The notes beneath the pieces are model-generated. The model was not told the origin of the DNA. It did not search any database and worked only from the letters and a program-made list of their open reading frames with translations. The translations under genes were made by a program, and so were the position numbers. This document shows, piece by piece, positions 37,409-45,064 of a stretch of 48,195 nucleotides of DNA (position 1 is its first letter; each line of letters starts with the position of its first letter). The stretch is from an uncultured Psychroflexus sp. (GTDB lineage: Bacteria > Bacteroidota > Bacteroidia > Flavobacteriales > Flavobacteriaceae): the NCBI GenBank assembly GCA_913062845.1, contig CAJXVZ010000017.1:1-48195 (forward strand). Direction: 5' to 3'.

Positions 37409-38743
37409 TTAATAATGACACTTTCCACACTCAATACCACCCATATCCGCGGCGGTAAACTCCTCTACGTTATACTTTTTAGATAACTCTTCGTGAATTT
37501 TAGTGTAGTAGCCATTGTCTTTAACTTTGACATTTGTTTCTCTGTGACAGTTTATACACCAACCCATAGTTAGCGGAGCATGCTGATACATAATCTCCAT
37601 TTCCTCAACCGGGCCGTGACAAGTCTGACACTCTATTTGTCCGACGGTAACGTGCTGTGAGTGATTAAAATATGCCAAATCAGGCAGATTATGCAGTCTA
37701 ATCCACTTAACAGGCTTAGATTCTCCGGTATATGACTGGGTCGTTTTGTCCCAGCCTACAGCTTCGTAAAGTTTAGCGATTTCAGCATTGTAATCTACGC
37801 CAAATTCCTGCTCTCCTTTAGCCTGGGTTTCCGGTGCAACCTCAGCGATTTGCTTATGACAATTCATACAAACATTCAAAGATGGAATACCTGAATGCTT
37901 TGAAACTCTGGCTGAGGAATGACAATACTTACATTCTATCTTGTTTTCACCAGCGTGTATTCTATGGGAATAATGTATAGGCTGAAGTGGTTCATATCCC
38001 TGATCCACACCAACCTGCATAAGGTATCCATAACCAAACCATCCTGTACCCAGCAAGAAAACTATGACTGTAATTAAAACAAGGAATCCGTTTTCTGCAT
38101 AAGCTTTCCAAAGGGGTTTTGTTTGTTTTTGTTCTTTAGCTTTTAATTGCACACCGTTGGCTTCTGCAAAACGGTTTAATGTTTTATTGACGAGGTATAA
38201 TGTTACTGCAAGCAATAATAATACAAACGACAATATAGCTAAAATGAGATCGGTCGAAACACCACCTCCGCCACCTCCGGCAGCTGCAACGTCAGTTTCA
38301 ACGGGTTTTGGCGGCTCAGGTTTTGGCTGTTCTACATAAGCCAAAATGTTATCAATGTCCTGATCACTCAATTGAGGAAAGGCATTCATCGCAACCTGAT
38401 TGTATTCCTCATAGATTGCAACTGCTCTTGAATCACCTGACTTAATTAGCGCCTGCGAATTTCTAATCCAACTGTACAACCACTCAAAATCCCCATCATA
38501 CTTATTCACTACACCATGCAAAGCAGGACCAACAGCTCTTTCATAAGGCTTGTGACAAGCCGCGCATAAAGAATTGAATAATTCTTTTCCTTTTGCCGGA
38601 TCACCACCGGGTACTGGCGATTCTACTGCTGCTTCAGTTTCAGCTGGAGTTTCGGCTTCAGTTTCTTGCGAAAAAAGAAAACCAGTAAACAAAAAGAAGA
38701 ATAAAAATGCAAAAAGTGAAGGTCTTAAAATTACCTTTTTCAT
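37409..38743 (-). CDS. actA: alternative complex III subunit ActA, pentahaem cytochrome c with extra N-terminal monohaem domain
   Basis: The 444-residue cytochrome has six CxxCH motifs. The first (Cys60-His64, CAACH) belongs to a class I cytochrome c domain at about 48-138, with the Met ligand probably at 119 (AMNAFPQLSD). A Pro/Gly-rich linker ending in six glycines and a membrane helix (166-186) lead to a second helix (218-240) and the pentahaem part: motifs at 271, 292, 372, 396 and 439. The last haem motif ends one residue before the C-terminus. The classic ActA has only the five; the extra domain could be a tethered shuttle to the oxidase. It is the first gene of the act-cox operon; TATTTTTG (38795-38802, minus strand), 51 bases before the ATG, is a weak -7 candidate. 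Confidence 0.94.
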   Translation of the reverse strand: MKKVILRPSLFAFLFFFLFTGFLFSQETEAETPAETEAAVESPVPGGDPAKGKELFNSLCAACHKPYERAVGPALHGVVNKYDGDFEWLYSWIRNSQALIKSGDSRAVAIYEEYNQVAMNAFPQLSDQDIDNILAYVEQPKPEPPKPVETDVAAAGGGGGGVSTDLILAILSFVLLLLAVTLYLVNKTLNRFAEANGVQLKAKEQKQTKPLWKAYAENGFLVLITVIVFLLGTGWFGYGYLMQVGVDQGYEPLQPIHYSHRIHAGENKIECKYCHSSARVSKHSGIPSLNVCMNCHKQIAEVAPETQAKGEQEFGVDYNAEIAKLYEAVGWDKTTQSYTGESKPVKWIRLHNLPDLAYFNHSQHVTVGQIECQTCHGPVEEMEIMYQHAPLTMGWCINCHRETNVKVKDNGYYTKIHEELSKKYNVEEFTAADMGGIECGKCHY

Positions 38744-38874
38744 ATTTGTAAAATTATAATTTTAAATGAACATAAGGTTCAGATATTTTGTTCGCAAAAA
38801 TAAGATATTACAATGATTTTAGTCATACTGACATTTGTTAAAAGCTAATTTAAAATCTTTCTAAATAACAAGAT

Positions 38875-38904
38875 TTGAACATCAGGATAAATATCATAGA
38901 TTTG
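38875..38904 (+). promoter_or_regulatory. Bacteroidota-type promoter of the SPOR gene
   Basis: TTG at 38875-38877, exactly 19 bases, then TAGATTTG at 38897-38904. The ATG follows 17 bases later (38922). Confidence 0.75.
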
Positions 38905-38921
38905 CATTATACTCCATTTTT

Positions 38922-39290
38922 ATGAAAATAATTAAAACAACATTTATATTATTATTTGTACAATTGTCAATACTTTGTCATGGGCAGGTTACTGAGGCCA
39001 ATGTAACAAAAATAGATTCCCTATTGCTTTTAAAGAAGGAAATGATCAATAATAATGATCTCAAGTCATTTTATACTATTCAATTGTTTTCAGGTAGAAT
39101 TGATGGGGCTGAAGAAGTAAAGAAAGACTATGATTCTAAAAATCACAATTACGAGGCTACTATAAAATACGAAACACCTAATTACAAGGTTTGGGTTGGG
39201 ATGTTCAGAACAAGATTATATGCTGACAAGGCTTATGAAGCCATAAGAAAAGACTTTCCAAATGCATTGGTTTTAAAACCAGGACGCTAA
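38922..39290 (+). CDS. SPOR domain-containing secreted protein
   Basis: A 122-residue protein with a signal peptide (MKIIKTTFILLFVQLSILCHGQ) and a C-terminal SPOR domain (about 50-120): YTIQLFSGRIDGAEEV, then IKYETPNYKVWVGMFRTR and LYADKAYEAIRKDFPNALVL. SPOR domains bind denuded glycan strands of septal peptidoglycan, so the protein should act in the periplasm. Because there is no membrane anchor it is released. Divergent from actA with its own promoter; a role in the respiratory complex is not implied. Proteins of this size and layout are common in Flavobacteriia. Confidence 0.8.
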   Translation: MKIIKTTFILLFVQLSILCHGQVTEANVTKIDSLLLLKKEMINNNDLKSFYTIQLFSGRIDGAEEVKKDYDSKNHNYEATIKYETPNYKVWVGMFRTRLYADKAYEAIRKDFPNALVLKPGR

Positions 39291-39309
39291 TAAATTTTTC
39301 AAAAAGTAA

Positions 39310-39340
39310 ACCAAAGGCTATTTCATTTGGTATATATTTG
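39310..39340 (+). promoter_or_regulatory. promoter with dyad ahead of the arsenosugar genes
   Basis: TATATTTG at 39333-39340 is a perfect -7 box 22 bases before the ATG at 39363. Immediately upstream, ACCAAA (39310-39315) and TTTGGT (39326-39331) form a dyad with a 10-base spacer where the -33 region would be; no TTG at the right distance. It may be an operator or a weak hairpin ending the SPOR transcript. Confidence 0.5.
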
Positions 39341-39362
39341 AAAGCAATCAAAAATATACTTT

Positions 39363-39698
39363 ATGGACAATTCTTATTACAACCCAAAAGATCTCAAAAA
39401 ATTTGGAAACATAACAGATTTTCAAAAAGAGCTTGGAGATAAATTTTTCGAATACTACACTAGTGTTTTTAAAGATGGTGCTTTAACTGAGAGGGAAAAG
39501 GCACTCATCGCGTTGGCAGTAGCTCACACAGAGCAATGTCCTTATTGCATAGATGCTTATACACAAGACACTTTACAACGCGGTGTTACCCGTGAAGAAA
39601 TGATGGAAGCTGTACACGTGGGTGCTGCCATTAAAAGTGGAGCAGCACTGGTTCACAGTACAATGATGATGAATAAAGTAAAAAAACTTGACGGATAA
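39363..39698 (+). CDS. arsenosugar biosynthesis-associated AhpD-like (carboxymuconolactone decarboxylase family) protein
   Basis: The 111-residue protein is an AhpD-like all-helical protein: ALTEREKALIALAVAHTEQC leads into the redox motif CPYC (Cys59, Cys62) with His55 and Glu57, as in alkylhydroperoxidase D cores, and the second half GAAIKSGAALVHSTMMMN. I recognise it as the arsenosugar biosynthesis-associated peroxidase-like family (TIGR04169), mainly because arsS follows after only 3 bases. The role in the pathway is unproven; reduction of an arsenic or sulfur intermediate is plausible. First gene of the cluster. Confidence 0.85.
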   Translation: MDNSYYNPKDLKKFGNITDFQKELGDKFFEYYTSVFKDGALTEREKALIALAVAHTEQCPYCIDAYTQDTLQRGVTREEMMEAVHVGAAIKSGAALVHSTMMMNKVKKLDG

Positions 39699-39701
39699 TT
39701 T

Positions 39702-40766
39702 ATGACAAAACTAAATCTTAAATCACTTAAGCGAAGAAAGAGTTTGCTGGCACAGGCAGATCATCAGTTAGAGTATTTGTCAAATGGTATTTTTAAAAGT
39801 GGTGAATTACCAACTTTTAAAGCAAAAATTGAAAAGGATGGATTTTTACCTTTAAAACCTAAAAAACTTGAAATTTTTCAAATCAACTTAGGTTATATGT
39901 GTAATCAGGTCTGTTCGCATTGTCATGTAGATGCAGGACCTGACCGACAGGAAATCATGACCCGAGAGACAATGCAGCATTGCCTGGATGTCATTAAAGA
40001 AAGTGGTGCCCATACTTTGGATTTAACCGGTGGTGCTCCTGAAATGAATCCGAATTTTAGGTGGTTTGTAGAAGAAGCTTCAAAAGTTGGTATTGATGAT
40101 ATTATAGTTAGATCAAATCTAACCATTATTAAGGCTAATAAGAAATATGCAGAACTACCGGATTTTTTTAAGAAACACGGCATTCATGTCGTATCTTCAT
40201 TACCTCACTGGACCAAGGGCAAAACAGACAAACAGCGCGGTGAAGGTGTTTTTAATGCTTCAATTGAAGCCTTAAAAGACTTAAATAAAGTCGGCTACGG
40301 TATGCAGGATAGCGGATTAAAATTAGATTTGGTTTACAATCCTTCTGGAGCATTTATGCCAGGCAATCAGGCAAGTTTAGAAAAGGACTTTAAAAAAGCT
40401 CTGAAAGATGATTTTGACATTCATTTCAACAATTTGTTAGCTATTACAAATTTGCCAATATCAAGATTTTTAGATTACCTGATTGCCTCCGAAAATTATG
40501 AGGATTATATGTATAATTTGGTTGAGGCATACAATCCCATAGCTGTTCAGAATGTTATGTGCCGAAATACACTCTCCGTGAGTTGGGATGGCTGGCTTTA
40601 CGATTGTGACTTCAATCAAATGCTGTGTATGAAAATTGAAACCGAAAAAAATCATATCAAAGATTTTGATTTGGAAGCCTTACAAAAGAGGAATATCAGA
40701 ATTCATCAGCACTGCTATGGCTGTACTGCCGGAGCAGGAAGCAGTTGCGGAGGAACGACAACATAA
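39702..40766 (+). CDS. arsS: arsenosugar biosynthesis radical SAM protein ArsS
   Basis: The 354-residue enzyme has the radical SAM motif CNQVCSHC (Cys67, Cys71, Cys74), then DLTGGAPEMNP (substrate and SAM-binding GGE-like strand) and the C-terminal auxiliary cysteines CYGCTAGAGSSCGG (338, 341, 349), all typical of TIGR04167. ArsS is proposed to transfer the 5'-deoxyadenosyl group from SAM to dimethylarsenite, giving a dimethylarsinoyl-deoxyadenosine, the precursor of arsenosugars. The methyltransferase ArsM that makes the dimethylarsenical is not in the window. A rhodanese gene follows 27 bases later. Confidence 0.93.
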   Translation: MTKLNLKSLKRRKSLLAQADHQLEYLSNGIFKSGELPTFKAKIEKDGFLPLKPKKLEIFQINLGYMCNQVCSHCHVDAGPDRQEIMTRETMQHCLDVIKESGAHTLDLTGGAPEMNPNFRWFVEEASKVGIDDIIVRSNLTIIKANKKYAELPDFFKKHGIHVVSSLPHWTKGKTDKQRGEGVFNASIEALKDLNKVGYGMQDSGLKLDLVYNPSGAFMPGNQASLEKDFKKALKDDFDIHFNNLLAITNLPISRFLDYLIASENYEDYMYNLVEAYNPIAVQNVMCRNTLSVSWDGWLYDCDFNQMLCMKIETEKNHIKDFDLEALQKRNIRIHQHCYGCTAGAGSSCGGTTT

Positions 40767-40793
40767 AAACAATCTTTAATAATATTTAAACTG

Positions 40794-41363
40794 ATGTCTT
40801 GCTTAACCCGTAATAGTAATTCTAAAGCTAGTATTACCAAAATTAATGAAAGGATAAAGCGGCTTAACTTAAAGCATTCAACATTTCTGTTGGTATTTTT
40901 TATATCAACTATTCTGGCTTTAGGTCAAAAATCTATAGATGAAACGCTATCGAAGTACAATTCCGGAACTGTTCCTTACATTTCAGTTGATGAACTCGAA
41001 TCTAAAATATCTAATAATCAAAATATCATTCTACTGGATACAAGGTCAAAAGAAGAATATAAGGTAAGTCATTTAAAAAAAGCCGTTTGGGTTGGGTACA
41101 AATCTTTTGAAAAATCCAGAGTTGAAAAATTTGATAAAAATGCGGAAATCATAATTTACTGTTCGGTTGGTGTAAGGTCTGAAAAAATTGGAGAAGAATT
41201 GAAAAATCTCGGATTCACTGACATTAAAAATTTATATGGTGGTATCTTTTTATGGACAAATAAGGGACTACCCCTATATGCTAATGGAAAACAAACAGAC
41301 TTCATCCATACTTACAATAAGCGCTGGTCTCAATTCATCACGAAAGGAAAAAAAGTCTATTAA
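40794..41363 (+). CDS. rhodanese-like domain protein of the arsenosugar cluster
   Basis: The 189-residue protein has a single membrane or signal segment (about residues 28-44, STFLLVFFISTILALG) after an unusually long basic N-terminus of 27 residues, then one rhodanese domain (62-156): LLDTRSKEEYKVSHL with Asp82, and the active-site loop YCSVGVRSE with Cys123. Rhodaneses carry sulfane sulfur; here it may supply sulfur for thio-arsenicals or for maturation. The N-terminus makes export likely, although a later start cannot be excluded. Its stop overlaps the next ATG (TAATG at 41361-41365), so they are coupled. Confidence 0.85.
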   Translation: MSCLTRNSNSKASITKINERIKRLNLKHSTFLLVFFISTILALGQKSIDETLSKYNSGTVPYISVDELESKISNNQNIILLDTRSKEEYKVSHLKKAVWVGYKSFEKSRVEKFDKNAEIIIYCSVGVRSEKIGEELKNLGFTDIKNLYGGIFLWTNKGLPLYANGKQTDFIHTYNKRWSQFITKGKKVY

Positions 41364-41977
41364 TGCCTAAAAATGCCCTCATCATTTTTACCCGAAAGCC
41401 TGAATTAGGAAAAGTTAAAACCCGATTGGCCAAAAGCGTTGGTGATGAAAAAGCCTTAGAAGTTTATAAACATTTACTCCTTCATTCAGCAGAAATCTCT
41501 TCACAGGTCAATGCTGAAAAACAGGTTTGGTACACCAACAGTATTGAAAAAAAAGACATCTGGAACGGTAAGGTTTTCAAAAAATACACGCAAGCAGATG
41601 GTGACCTTGGAAATAAAATGAACCATGCATTTTTTATAAATTTCAAAAATGAATTTGAAAAAGTGGTGATCATGGGTACGGATTTGCTTGATATAGATAC
41701 AAACCTGATTGAAAAGGCCTTTGAACATTTAGACCATCATGATGTGGTGATCGGACCTGCTGAAGATGGTGGTTACTACTTATTGGGTATGAATCATTTT
41801 ATTCCTGAAGTGTTTGAAGATGTGGAATGGAGTACTTCCAAAGTTTTAAAACAAACTTTAGAAAAACTAAAACATAAGTCGGTGATGCTTTTGGATGAGA
41901 AAAATGACATTGATTATAAGGAGGATGCCCTAAGGCATGCAGAACTTAAAAACATATTGTTTCGGGACGCAAACTAA
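41363..41977 (+). CDS. TIGR04282 family arsenosugar biosynthesis glycosyltransferase (DUF2064)
   Basis: The 204-residue cytoplasmic protein opens with NALIIFTRKPELGKVKTRLA, a nucleotidyl/glycosyltransferase A-type start with a nucleotide-binding basic loop, followed by VVIMGTDLLDIDTNLIEKA (carrying a DxD) and VIGPAEDGGYYLLGM, the signature of DUF2064/CofC-like proteins. TIGR04282 members occur in arsenosugar clusters. It could activate or transfer a sugar or phosphate; this is not proven. It starts at the TAATG overlap with the rhodanese gene and its end overlaps the convergent second glycosyltransferase by four bases. Confidence 0.88.
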   Translation: MPKNALIIFTRKPELGKVKTRLAKSVGDEKALEVYKHLLLHSAEISSQVNAEKQVWYTNSIEKKDIWNGKVFKKYTQADGDLGNKMNHAFFINFKNEFEKVVIMGTDLLDIDTNLIEKAFEHLDHHDVVIGPAEDGGYYLLGMNHFIPEVFEDVEWSTSKVLKQTLEKLKHKSVMLLDEKNDIDYKEDALRHAELKNILFRDAN

Positions 41978-42675
41978 ACCCCTTCTCTTAAAAAGCCTTT
42001 ATAAATTTTTCTGAGTTTTAATGGTTTTATACCAAGCTTATAAAGCAGGAAAACATAGCCATTGATCAGGTTTACCTCAAGCCAGGTAGAATGGTCATAT
42101 TTTCGGGCGCTTACAGTGGCCCTGCTTTGTATGATCTTAAACGGAATTTTTTGTTTTCTGACCCTATCCATAATTTCAAAGTCCTCCATAATGCAGTAGT
42201 CTTCATCAAAACCACCCAATTCTTCAAAGGTATTGGCTTCAAAAAACTGGCATTGGTCTCCTGCACCGGCAAAAAGACTATCATTTTTTGTAAAATAACT
42301 GTTCAGATTCAACATAAAAGTACTCCGATCAAAGCGATAGGCAAAAAATCCCATCTTGTAACCTTCTTTGACTGCTAAGGTGACCTGCTCATAAAAATCC
42401 TCGGGAAGTTGCACATCACAATGCAAAAACATCAAGATATCGCCCTTAGCCATAGAAGCTCCAAAATTCATCTGTTTGGCCCGTCCTTTTGTAAAACTAT
42501 CATAAAATTGTACATTTTTGTAGCTTTTACTGATCTCTGCACTGTTATCTGTCGTATCTATACTGTTAGAAAGAATGATTTCAATGGGATGCAAATCTGC
42601 CTGTCGGTCTAAAAACGTTAATTGTATCGGTAGATTTTTTGATTCGTTGTAAATTGGAATAATGATACTTAACAT
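41974..42675 (-). CDS. TIGR04283 family arsenosugar biosynthesis glycosyltransferase
   Basis: A 233-residue family 2 glycosyltransferase. SIIIPIYNESKNL is the nucleotide-sugar binding start, KGRAKQMNFGASMAKGD (63-79) and FLHCDVQLPEDF (84-95, Asp87 as the metal-binding Asp) the typical middle, GAGDQCQFFEANTFEELGGF and CIMEDFEIMDR the acceptor side with the general base ED. TIGR04283 proteins are found with ArsS in Bacteroidota and other phyla. Probably they attach a sugar-like head group to the arsenoriboside. It is the only minus-strand gene of the cluster, convergent with TIGR04282 and divergent from DUF547. Confidence 0.9.
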   Translation of the reverse strand: MLSIIIPIYNESKNLPIQLTFLDRQADLHPIEIILSNSIDTTDNSAEISKSYKNVQFYDSFTKGRAKQMNFGASMAKGDILMFLHCDVQLPEDFYEQVTLAVKEGYKMGFFAYRFDRSTFMLNLNSYFTKNDSLFAGAGDQCQFFEANTFEELGGFDEDYCIMEDFEIMDRVRKQKIPFKIIQSRATVSARKYDHSTWLEVNLINGYVFLLYKLGIKPLKLRKIYKGFLREGV

Positions 42676-42696
42676 AGCACTAAACTACAGATTATT

Positions 42697-43470
42697 ATGA
42701 GAACTATACTGAATATAACCCTGTTATTATGCATATTTTTCACATATGCTCAACAAAGCTTTGATTATATAGATCTATCTCAAAATCTGCTGGAAAAAGT
42801 GAAGAATGAAAAGAATTTTCAACCTGAGATCAAACAACTTGAAGCCAGTCAATTAGAAGATCTGGCTGAACAATTAAAGACTGATGAGCAAAAACTTGCA
42901 TTTTGGATCAATATCTACAACGCTTTCATTCAGATATCTCTGAAAGAAAATCCTGAGCAATATACTGATGACAACAGGAGCAACTTTTTTAAAACAGAAC
43001 GTGTGAATATTGCAGGTGAAAAATTATCCTTTGATGATATCGAGCATGGTATCATCAGAAGTTCGATGTCCAAAATATCAATGGGTTATGTCAAGAAGAT
43101 TTTCAGGCCAGAATGGGAACGCAAACTAAGGGTTGAGAATATTGACTGGAGAATACATTTTGCTCTGAATTGTGGCGCAAAGAGTTGTCCACCGGTAGCC
43201 ATTTATGATGACAAGTTTATCGATAAACAGCTAGATTTCATGACCAAATCCTACCTAAAAGAACAAACCAATTACATAGCTGAGACCAAGACTGCTGAAA
43301 CAGTAGTGTTATTCTCATGGTTCAGAGGTGATTTTGGTGGTTTAGATGAAGTCAAAAAGATTTTAAGACAATATGATGTCACGCCGGAGAAACCTGAAGA
43401 TCTGGAGTTCAAAACCTATGACTGGACCATGTTACTGGACAATTTCAGAACACTACCGGACTTCAAATAG
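42697..43470 (+). CDS. DUF547 domain-containing secreted protein
   Basis: The 257-residue protein has a signal peptide (MRTILNITLLLCIFFTYAQ). The DUF547 motifs are clear: KLAFWINIYNAFIQ (about 68-81), the family's central DIEHGIIRS, and HFALNCGAKSCPPVAIYD (about 153-170, with two conserved cysteines). DUF547 proteins have a papain or transglutaminase-like look with a Cys/His pair, but no known activity; they are often found beside arsS genes in Bacteroidota. Only 21 bases separate it from the divergent glycosyltransferase gene, so its promoter overlaps that gene's start. Confidence 0.88.
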   Translation: MRTILNITLLLCIFFTYAQQSFDYIDLSQNLLEKVKNEKNFQPEIKQLEASQLEDLAEQLKTDEQKLAFWINIYNAFIQISLKENPEQYTDDNRSNFFKTERVNIAGEKLSFDDIEHGIIRSSMSKISMGYVKKIFRPEWERKLRVENIDWRIHFALNCGAKSCPPVAIYDDKFIDKQLDFMTKSYLKEQTNYIAETKTAETVVLFSWFRGDFGGLDEVKKILRQYDVTPEKPEDLEFKTYDWTMLLDNFRTLPDFK

Positions 43471-43515
43471 GCATTAGATTTAATATAGATTTTACAAAAA
43501 ACCCAATTAAATATT

Positions 43516-43523
43516 TAGATTTG
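43516..43523 (+). promoter_or_regulatory. -7 promoter element of the PNP gene
   Basis: TAGATTTG at 43516-43523, 26 bases before the ATG at 43550. A TTTAC lies at the -33 distance instead of TTG. It shows that the PNP gene can be transcribed apart from DUF547. Confidence 0.55.
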
Positions 43524-43549
43524 TTGTCTTGTTCCACAAGAATCAAAAC

Positions 43550-44359
43550 ATGAAATATATTCAAGAAACGACGGAATACCTCATAGAAAAAGGGTTTGAT
43601 AAGCCAGAAATAGGCATTATACTTGGCACCGGTTTAGGTCAATTACTAGAGAAAGTCGATGTCATCCAGGAAGTCAGTTATAACCACATACCAAATTTCC
43701 CCACAGCAACCGTTGAATTTCATAAAGGAAAGCTCATTTACGGAAAAATTGAAGGTAAAACCGCCGTTATTATGCAAGGACGTTTTCATCTATATGAAGG
43801 CTATGATTTATTGGACGTCACCTTTCCTGTAAGAATCATGTACCGATTGGGTGTAAAAAAACTATTGGTTTCTAACGCTGCCGGCGCCATCAACCTCAAT
43901 TTTAAAAAAGGGGAACTCATGCTTATCGATGACCACATTAACCTTTTAGGCGGTTCGCCATTGGCTTATAAGGGAGTCTCGAAGCTTGGAAATATTTTCG
44001 TTGATATGAGTTGTCCTTATGACAAGGGCATGAGCCAAAAACTTGAAGACATTGCCCAAACCGAAAAGATCAAACTCCATAAAGGCGTTTACGCTTCAGT
44101 ATTAGGCCCACAATTGGAAACAAGAGCAGAATACCGATATCTCAAAACCATTGGTGCTGATGCTGTTGGTATGAGTACAGTTCCTGAAGTCATTGTGGCC
44201 AATCATCTCAAACTGCCTGTAGTTGCGGTTTCTGTTTTAACTGACGAATGTGATCCTGACCATTTGGAGCCGGTCAATGTTGAAGATATACTATCTACAG
44301 CTGCAAAAGCAGAGCCAAATATGGTGAAACTGTTTTGTGAATTGATAAAAGGACTTTAA
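43550..44359 (+). CDS. purine-nucleoside phosphorylase, class I (trimeric type)
   Basis: The enzyme splits purine nucleosides with phosphate into base and ribose 1-phosphate. With the ATG at 43550 it has 269 residues (the frame also has a TTG at 43529). Class I motifs are seen: GIILGTGLGQLLEKV, RFHLYEGYD with the phosphate-binding His, VSNAAGAINLNFKKGEL, Glu190 (QLETRAEYR) that reads the base, and GADAVGMSTVPEVIVA. In human PNP Asn243 reads the 6-oxo group; the aligned residue here is Asp232 (SVLTDECDP). Asp at that place favours 6-amino purines (adenosine), as known from the human N243D variant. It lies next to the arsenosugar cluster but has its own promoter. PNP in the classical sense remains possible. 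Confidence 0.93.
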   Translation: MKYIQETTEYLIEKGFDKPEIGIILGTGLGQLLEKVDVIQEVSYNHIPNFPTATVEFHKGKLIYGKIEGKTAVIMQGRFHLYEGYDLLDVTFPVRIMYRLGVKKLLVSNAAGAINLNFKKGELMLIDDHINLLGGSPLAYKGVSKLGNIFVDMSCPYDKGMSQKLEDIAQTEKIKLHKGVYASVLGPQLETRAEYRYLKTIGADAVGMSTVPEVIVANHLKLPVVAVSVLTDECDPDHLEPVNVEDILSTAAKAEPNMVKLFCELIKGL

Positions 44360-44464
44360 TTCATAATACCAAAGTATTATATAACGTTCACTTTAGAAAT
44401 TTACTGTAACCCTTTTAAAGAAAATTGACTTATTTAACTGAGTCTCTGAATAAAATTTTCAGAA

Positions 44465-45064
44465 TCAATCAGCCCTGACCTCCATCAGTCGTTTCACATA
44501 TTTTCCGATCACATCAAACTCCAGATTGACCTTATCCCCTTTTTGGAGGTATTTAAATGTAGTATGTTCAAAAGTATAAGGAATAATAGCTACACTGAAG
44601 GCGCTGATATCACTGTCAACAACAGTTAAGCTCACACCATTAATCGTGATTGAGCCTTTTTCAATAGTCACGTTTTGTTGTTTTGAATCGTATTCAAATC
44701 TATAAGTCCAGCTGCCATCATTTTCTTCAGCTTTTATGCAGGTTGCAGTTTGGTCTACGTGACCCTGTACGATATGTCCATCCAGTCTGGCATTGAGTTT
44801 TGCCCCTCGTTCAAGATTGATCTTGCTACCAACTTTAAGATCACCAAGATTGGTTTTTTGCAAAGTTTCGTCAATTGCTGTTACTCTGTAGGATTTATTA
44901 TCTATATCAGTTGAAACAACTGTAAGGCAAACACCGTTGTGAGATATACTTTGGTCTACTTTGAGTTCATTTACAAGTAAAGATTTTATATCAAAGTGAA
45001 TATTGGTTTTATCCCTTTCAATATTAATTACTTCTGCTATTTCTTCAATAATACCTGTAAACAT
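44465..45064 (-). CDS. ribE: riboflavin synthase, alpha chain
   Basis: The 199-residue enzyme joins two 6,7-dimethyl-8-ribityllumazine molecules into riboflavin. The start MFTGIIEEIAEV is the family's invariant opening. It has two homologous barrels, with VDQSISHNGVCLTVV in the first and EKGSITINGVSLTVVD in the second, plus GHIVQGHVDQ. It ends after the usual C-terminal helix (YVKRLMEVRAD). Single gene on the minus strand, divergent from pdxA; TAAATTTG (45094-45101, minus strand) lies 29 bases before the ATG. No FMN riboswitch fits into the 107-base gap. Confidence 0.97.
   Translation of the reverse strand: MFTGIIEEIAEVINIERDKTNIHFDIKSLLVNELKVDQSISHNGVCLTVVSTDIDNKSYRVTAIDETLQKTNLGDLKVGSKINLERGAKLNARLDGHIVQGHVDQTATCIKAEENDGSWTYRFEYDSKQQNVTIEKGSITINGVSLTVVDSDISAFSVAIIPYTFEHTTFKYLQKGDKVNLEFDVIGKYVKRLMEVRAD

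Follow-up and report, generated by a model that had tools for sequence, protein, structure and literature searches.

Among the organic arsenic compounds of seaweed and plankton, arsenosugars are common. The radical S-adenosylmethionine (SAM) enzyme ArsS yields a product in which arsenic is bonded to the 5' carbon of deoxyadenosine. Adenosylation of arsenic by ArsS is described in the available part of PMC12159101. Which genes act after this step is the question raised by a locus of an uncultured Psychroflexus sp. (Flavobacteriaceae), found on contig CAJXVZ010000017.1 of assembly GCA_913062845.1; the window, i.e., the whole stretch of DNA that was analyzed, comprises positions 1 to 48,195. Here arsS (39702..40766, plus strand) lies in one cluster with a gene for a class I purine nucleoside phosphorylase (PNP; 43550..44359, plus strand) and with members of the families TIGR04282 and TIGR04283. 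In the titles and abstract openings searched, mostly of open papers, genes for the steps after ArsS are unassigned, and nothing ties PNP, methylthioadenosine phosphorylase (MTAP) or TIGR04282 to the arsenosugar pathway. The comparative evidence names a candidate for the removal of adenine, namely the linked PNP, which very probably belongs to this pathway.

Linkage of the phosphorylase to arsenosugar genes

The ArsS locus set comprised 80 loci, the best 80 of 590 relatives and close ones only, in which gene families were clustered from open reading frames (ORFs). A whole PNP ORF was present in 60 of the 80 loci, always on the same strand as ArsS (60/60) and never more than two genes from TIGR04282 (60/60). 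The count called for by the preliminary description, a class I PNP within five genes of ArsS, came to 52 of 80 loci, and the PNP adjoined the arsenosugar arsM in 40/60 (NF038099 being assigned through one representative). Among the 20 loci without a whole PNP, three have a PNP truncated by the locus end (L005, L024, L045), three stop shortly past TIGR04282 (L011, L049, L069), and the remaining 14, from Maribacter, Muricauda and similar genera, have no PNP in the stretch covered. Rhodanese NF045521 and DUF547 were found in 52/80 and 40/80 loci, respectively. Outside the named cluster genes, the commonest families reach just 19/80 (a fatty-acid hydroxylase, perhaps itself a cluster member) and 18/80, and general synteny was therefore rejected as the cause of the PNP linkage.

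At the genome level, 139 Flavobacteriaceae genomes from 138 genera, all at least 95% complete, were searched for ArsS, a profile of the linked PNP, TIGR04282 and the NF038099 arsM, which were present in 114, 126, 119 and 88 genomes, respectively. All four occur together in 88 genomes and all except arsM in 26; five hold only TIGR04282 and PNP, seven only PNP, and 13 none of them. The linked-type PNP is found in 114/114 arsS-positive versus 12/25 arsS-negative genomes (Fisher p 8e-12, uncorrected for relatedness), where the arsS-positive count includes a PNP fragment in G429 (164 bits; genome 7% contaminated) and the PNPs of G428 and G448, each with one internal TAA read through. A copy free of visible defect is held by 111 of the 114.

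The PNP lies within 5 kb of TIGR04282 in all 119 genomes that have this gene (within 1 kb in 117), and within 5 kb of arsM in 86/88. For arsS, the corresponding count is 76/114, rising to 91/114 within 15 kb, and in the other 23 genomes arsS is located elsewhere or on a separate contig. In eight of these 23 genomes the surroundings of the PNP were read, and TIGR04282 stands alongside it in 8/8, arsM in 7/8 and TIGR04283 in 7/8. Because of both the distances and the unlinked loci, the PNP is associated with TIGR04282 first and with ArsS second, which revises the preliminary description.

A finer comparison is offered by a genus in which arsS is patchy (140 genomes, centre G084), which we take to be Flavobacterium and in which 11 genomes carry arsS. 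Class I PNPs in this genus form two score groups, with 94 ordinary enzymes at 363-387 bits and 11 at 321-350 bits. The low-scoring subtype occurs in 11/11 arsS-positive and 0/129 arsS-negative genomes (p 1.5e-16, uncorrected for relatedness; a broken partial match in G342 was left out). It sits approximately 0.2 to 8.2 kb from arsS, downstream of ArsS in seven genomes, and upstream and divergent in four. An ordinary PNP is also kept in 9/11 arsS-positive genomes, and of those lacking arsS, 85 have the ordinary PNP only, 43 have none and one has a broken fragment. The preliminary description had named beforehand, as the test that could refute it, whether PNP is more frequent at arsS loci than expected by chance; the idea survived by a wide margin (60/80 loci; 114/114 versus 12/25; 11/11 versus 0/129), and the link between PNP and arsS is not due to chance.

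These data also bear on whether the PNP is an ordinary gene of purine salvage that happens to sit in the cluster, which we find very unlikely. Most family genomes carry either the linked PNP (126/139) or an ordinary type (8/139), with both in just one, and 12 arsS-negative genomes retain the linked PNP, as could be expected of a salvage gene. In the patchy genus, however, the extra PNP is gained or lost with arsS while the ordinary PNP persists, so that both types are present in nine of the 11 arsS-positive genomes and the linked type is missing wherever arsS is missing. This is hard to explain by purine salvage. Further points against salvage are that the window genome also encodes a DeoD PNP, that the pocket of the linked enzyme is altered, and that MTAP occupies the place of PNP in another phylum.

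Pocket residues and phosphorylases in other lineages

The active-site pocket was compared at positions 239 and 251 of the window PNP, counted from a TTG at 43529. They correspond to human N243 and H257, as read from a phmmer alignment with chain 4ear, where 251 aligns to tryptophan; we take this chain to be the human PNP H257W mutant. H257 presumably binds the 5'-hydroxyl and N243 the 6-oxo group of the base, if the human numbering is as we assume. The window PNP does not carry the 6-oxopurine signature (Asn at N243 and His at H257) and has D239 and V251 instead. All 79 linked PNPs examined have D239 together with I or V at 251, and 30/30 ordinary PNPs of the patchy genus have D239 and H251. 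As D239 is common to both types, it is residue 251 and not Asp239 that sets the linked PNPs apart. Judged from the alignment, the change at residue 251 fits a 5'-deoxy-5'-substituted adenosine as substrate. By profile, the window protein is a class I PNP (NF006054, 331.8 bits, cut-off 218) and not an MTAP member (TIGR01694, 92.8 bits, cut-off 274.85), and its best-scoring solved chains are 4lna, 8swu and 4m1e.

A plasmid search with the PNP gave weak matches annotated as methylthioadenosine (MTA) phosphorylase, on records that also bear ArsS. Burkholderia glumae has TIGR04282, TIGR04283 and MTAP side by side approximately 6 kb from ArsS, and in Cupriavidus sp. KK10 TIGR04282 is directly followed by MTAP. 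The order in Acinetobacter portensis is ArsS, a TVP38/oxidoreductase protein, DUF547, TIGR04283, TIGR04282, a methyltransferase, a phosphate transporter and, on the opposite strand, MTAP. The three cluster MTAPs exceed the TIGR01694 cut-off of 274.85 (312.1, 314.8 and 276.8 bits) and have, by eye and at 23-25% identity to the window PNP, Asp at the 239 place and V, A and V at the 251 place. MTAP is thus in the cluster for three of six arsS-bearing genera of the plasmid collection. Of the 75 records with an MTAP relative, 47 Burkholderia (near-copies, counted as one), one Acinetobacter and one Cupriavidus fall in arsS-bearing groups and 26 outside. Eight more PF01048-type proteins were considered as MTAP candidates and dropped, being by eye seven AMP nucleosidases and one PNP. 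By analogy, a different phosphorylase in the same cluster offers the best independent support for the proposed type of reaction, and it suggests that where PNP or MTAP genes lie in arsS clusters they are misread as salvage genes. DUF547 is also found in the Burkholderia and Acinetobacter arsS clusters. As a separate observation, an extra radical SAM gene adjoins DUF547 in the Burkholderia and Cupriavidus clusters (L306:13081-15278 and L308:14392-16687; Cupriavidus by eye).

The presence of MTAP could also point to a cleaning role, in which the PNP clears 5'-deoxyadenosine or MTA that ArsS or other SAM enzymes release as by-products and relieves inhibition without being a pathway step. The pocket residues would suit these two compounds too, and seven arsS-negative genomes hold the PNP alone. 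However, a scavenger should track the radical SAM gene, and the PNP tracks TIGR04282 (119/119 within 5 kb) over ArsS (76/114). Additionally, all 129 arsS-negative genomes of the patchy genus are without the linked subtype, even though they surely contain other radical SAM enzymes. We consider a cleaning role unlikely. Far less credible is that the PNP acts on arsenate, with nucleoside arsenolysis helping to convert arsenate into arsenite, a role reported for the mammalian enzyme. The available part of PMC12608789 describes PNP-assisted arsenate reduction in vitro and thereby provides a precedent, but such a role leaves the pocket residues, the tie to TIGR04282 and the MTAP of other clusters unexplained.

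Several observations weigh against placing the linked PNP in the arsenosugar pathway. The window enzyme scores just over TIGR01700, the model for inosine/guanosine-specific enzymes (297.3 bits, cut-off 293.35). At the phylum level, class I PNP is near-universal (104/104 arsS-positive and at least 131/143 arsS-negative genomes), and 28 of the 30 top PNPs of the phylum sample are of the Asp/hydrophobic type, with 13 of the 30 genomes lacking arsS. A tree of 86 sampled rows places the linked PNPs and the arsS-negative PNPs of the family, all of them, in one clade (100/100, 51 rows), which represents one recruitment within Flavobacteriaceae, long kept. None of 20 arsS loci outside Flavobacteriaceae contains a PNP relative, and the annotation of Hymenobacter, Pseudanabaena and Thiodictyon, which is incomplete, shows no phosphorylase in the 9-12 kb around arsS. 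NF038099-type arsM is missing from 26/114 arsS-positive genomes, and the window genome has no recognized arsM: NF038099 gave nothing at E <= 1e-100, and the best NF008823 match, with 36.7 bits, stays under the cut-off. Finally, 12 arsS-negative genomes retain the PNP, five with TIGR04282 and seven with PNP alone, which implies another use or a lingering copy, and a second role is likely.

That the Asp/hydrophobic type is exclusive to arsS-positive genomes was rejected, as 13 of the 30 genomes with these top PNPs lack arsS, and 12/25 arsS-negative Flavobacteriaceae carry the linked type. In arsS-positive genomes of other families, a hydrophobic-251 PNP is present in 23/23 and D239 in 22/23, and their PF01048 genes are on other contigs or far off, the nearest seen at approximately 29 kb (G079). 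Since the hydrophobic-251 type also occurs without arsS at the phylum level, the linked PNP is a suitable enzyme retained for the job in Flavobacteriaceae, and not one newly invented for it.

Five genomes (loci L249, L250, L251, L254, L255) are without arsS and NF038099 arsM and nevertheless keep rhodanese, TIGR04282 and PNP together with a TIGR04283 relative. These clusters are either remnants or a related arsenic-free riboside pathway. The latter would agree with the rhodanese, TIGR04282, PNP, DUF547 and TIGR04283 genes forming an older module for nucleotide-activated (5-modified) ribose and its riboside, with arsenosugar as one use. In the five genomes TIGR04282 and PNP are adjacent, rhodanese and TIGR04283 relatives are found in 5/5 and DUF547 in 3/5. 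On the other hand, TIGR04282 without arsS is rare (5/119), and the PNPs of these genomes nest among pathway copies in the tree, which fits a recent loss of arsS. An older module of this kind is improbable, and a dedicated role in arsenosugar synthesis is preferred.

Folds of TIGR04282 and TIGR04283 and a proposed pathway

The TIGR04282/DUF2064 protein of the window (41363..41977, plus strand; 211.9 bits, cut-off 134) had been grouped with TIGR04283 as glycosyltransferases, in the plural. Its AlphaFold model, built with 32 relatives, has a predicted local distance difference test score (pLDDT) of 95.7. The top Foldseek match is 3cgx, an uncharacterized protein titled putative nucleotide-diphospho-sugar transferase. 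Ranks 2-9 are taken up by 2i5e (titled probable nucleotidyltransferase), 3-phosphoglycerate guanylyltransferase and Rv2983, with IspD and glucose-1-phosphate cytidylyltransferase further down and the first glycosyltransferase at rank 14. In the alignment of 33 rows, G16, K19, R21, D107, D135, D182 and D184 are invariant. According to the model, the fold is nucleotidyltransferase-like, resembling guanylyl- and other nucleotidyltransferases, and the protein is probably a glycosyltransferase in label only; it is recast here as a likely sugar-activating enzyme. A second TIGR04282 paralogue is seen in some loci (L045:11126-11806, L064:8732-9424, L186:11068-11742, L188:15452-16126, L192:8158-8925), below the cut-off in the two tested (106.2 and 95.6 bits). 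Conservation across 30 lower-scoring relatives of TIGR04282 extends to the DGGY and Asp motifs but not to the GxxKxRL stretch.

The TIGR04283 protein (41974..42675, minus strand) passes its cut-off narrowly (189.9 versus 182 bits). Its model has a pLDDT of 91.8, and each of the 50 listed Foldseek matches is a glycosyltransferase or a glycan polymerase. The original label thus holds for TIGR04283, and of the two proteins it is likely the only glycosyltransferase by predicted fold. In the window it is a minus-strand gene flanked by plus-strand genes, with at most 38% identity to 23 aligned relatives.

A nucleotidyltransferase-like protein beside a phosphorylase suggests a route through a sugar 1-phosphate and then a nucleoside diphosphate sugar to a riboside formed by the family 2 enzyme. 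In the proposed pathway, the AhpD-like protein would probably act as thiol reductant of dimethylarsenic for ArsS. The linked PNP, with its MTAP-like 5' pocket, would then direct phosphate attack on the arsenic nucleoside, releasing adenine and 5-deoxy-5-dimethylarsinoyl-ribose 1-phosphate. That the PNP phosphorolyses the ArsS nucleoside to adenine and arsenoribose 1-phosphate is, from its residues and gene context, probable. Adenine removal had been put forward before, and it gains support from the MTAP-like pocket residues and from the MTAP that three Pseudomonadota genera carry in their arsS clusters. TIGR04282 would act as NTP:arsenoribose-1-phosphate nucleotidyltransferase, joining the sugar phosphate to a nucleotide, an assignment that its model slightly favors. 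TIGR04283 would be the arsenoribosyl transferase, with glycerol or a glycerol-containing molecule as acceptor. Phosphorolysis proceeds with inversion and gives an alpha-1-phosphate, from which an inverting transferase gives a beta-riboside. Two successive inversions would fit the natural arsenosugars, which are 5-dimethylarsinoyl-beta-D-ribofuranosides according to the available part of PMC10456119. The order of steps, the nucleotide and the acceptor are what we infer. Collectively, it appears reasonably likely that this locus provides the enzymes for the middle and final stages of arsenosugar biosynthesis, with the steps as proposed. More tentatively, a route through nucleotide-activated arsenoribose (e.g., guanosine diphosphate-arsenoribose) may have drafted phosphorylases for its first step at least twice, as class I PNP in Flavobacteriaceae and as MTAP in Pseudomonadota. 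To our knowledge, and without a literature search aimed at it, nucleotide-activated arsenoribose is not a known kind of metabolite.

The preliminary description had asked for arsM in the genome. A complete arsenosugar pathway would require it there. The genome is 99.96% complete (3.37 Mb, 155 contigs), and the searches for NF038099 and NF008823 given above found no arsM in it; the congener L186 has arsM between ArsS and rhodanese. Strains with arsS but no recognized arsM may use methylated arsenic made by others, and the dimethylarsenic used by the window genome may be supplied from outside.

Genes that could relate to arsenic supply recur around the clusters. A SusC/SusD pair (named by eye), a sodium:solute symporter and a metallophosphoesterase lie in or beside the arsenosugar cluster at L045:11895-18741. 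Similar sets occur in L004, L029, L037, L038, L039, L042, L061 and L078, also in L199 and L200, and upstream of ArsS in L052, L060, L062 and L068. The set looks like an importer of an organic arsenic compound or a phosphorylated relative. Fatty-acid hydroxylase/sterol desaturase and phosphate-transporter genes recur in arsS clusters of Bacteroidota as well as Pseudomonadota (L028:13203-14096; L307:18378-19037; L311:11051-11956; L044:15170-16288; L308:5988-7127), hinting at arsenolipids and arsenate uptake. A DM13-domain protein sorted by the type IX secretion system stands between TIGR04282 and PNP in 8/80 loci (L007, L009, L015, L021, L043, L044, L054, L055; domains from one representative).

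The window locus and its relation to known systems

The gene list of the preliminary description for 39363-44359 proved right, as all seven genes are open frames above curated cut-offs; two details are amended, namely the strand of TIGR04283, which is minus, and the start of the PNP. The PNP ORF opens with the TTG at 43529, and the ATG at 43550 is the start that matches the alignment with relatives. The cluster begins with the AhpD-like CxxC protein TIGR04169 (39363..39698, plus strand; 177.4 bits, cut-off 120), whose CxxC is kept in 74/74 locus homologues. The ArsS that follows (TIGR04167, 442 bits, cut-off 300) is the single match in its genome at E <= 0.001, and nearly all its named relatives belong to Flavobacteriaceae. 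Its CxxxCxxC cluster motif reads CNQVCSHC and is present in 80/80 locus homologues. The rhodanese-homology protein NF045521 (40794..41363, plus strand; 195.1 bits, cut-off 145) precedes TIGR04282, and the DUF547 protein PF04784 (42697..43470, plus strand; 106.9 bits, cut-off 27) stands before the PNP.

On the 5' side of the cluster, a small protein falls just short of the SPOR model (20.7 bits, cut-off 21), and two ORFs on the minus strand resemble, by eye, cytochrome and iron-sulphur subunits of a respiratory complex; riboflavin synthase and PdxA are found on the 3' side. Two further genes of the PNP superfamily are present in the genome, one being the DeoD-type PNP and the other uridine-phosphorylase-like, under the cut-off of that model. 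Screening of 38700-44700 for DNA repeats gave just short, imperfect ones, and the number of promoter and terminator sites there was approximately that in shuffled sequence.

With candidates for these steps, three purified proteins and a single synthetic nucleoside would allow the rest of the pathway to be tested. The locus contains the same families that NCBIfam names for arsenosugar biosynthesis, i.e., ArsS (TIGR04167) with TIGR04169, TIGR04282, TIGR04283 and the NF038099 ArsM. It differs from that set in that no NCBIfam match here names a nucleoside phosphorylase for the pathway, and in that the window genome is without a recognized arsM. Compared with class I PNP (NF006054 and TIGR01700), the window enzyme passes both cut-offs but carries a hydrophobic residue where the human enzyme has H257, and Asp where it has N243. 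Like MTAP, it combines Asp at the position of N243 with a residue other than His at that of H257, and its proposed substrate is also a 5'-deoxy-5'-substituted adenosine, whereas its TIGR01694 score lies well under the cut-off. TIGR04282 shares its predicted fold with CofC, Rv2983 and the 3-phosphoglycerate guanylyltransferases, and differs in scoring 30.2 bits against the TIGR03552 CofC cut-off of 105. The closest scheme is that for the algal arsenolipid AsSugPhytol546, where, in the available part of PMC10456119, an adenosyl nucleosidase is proposed and adenine likewise leaves after the arsenic nucleoside has formed. No gene is named there for the nucleosidase (PMC10456119, same part), whereas the enzyme proposed here would be phosphorolytic and has a gene.

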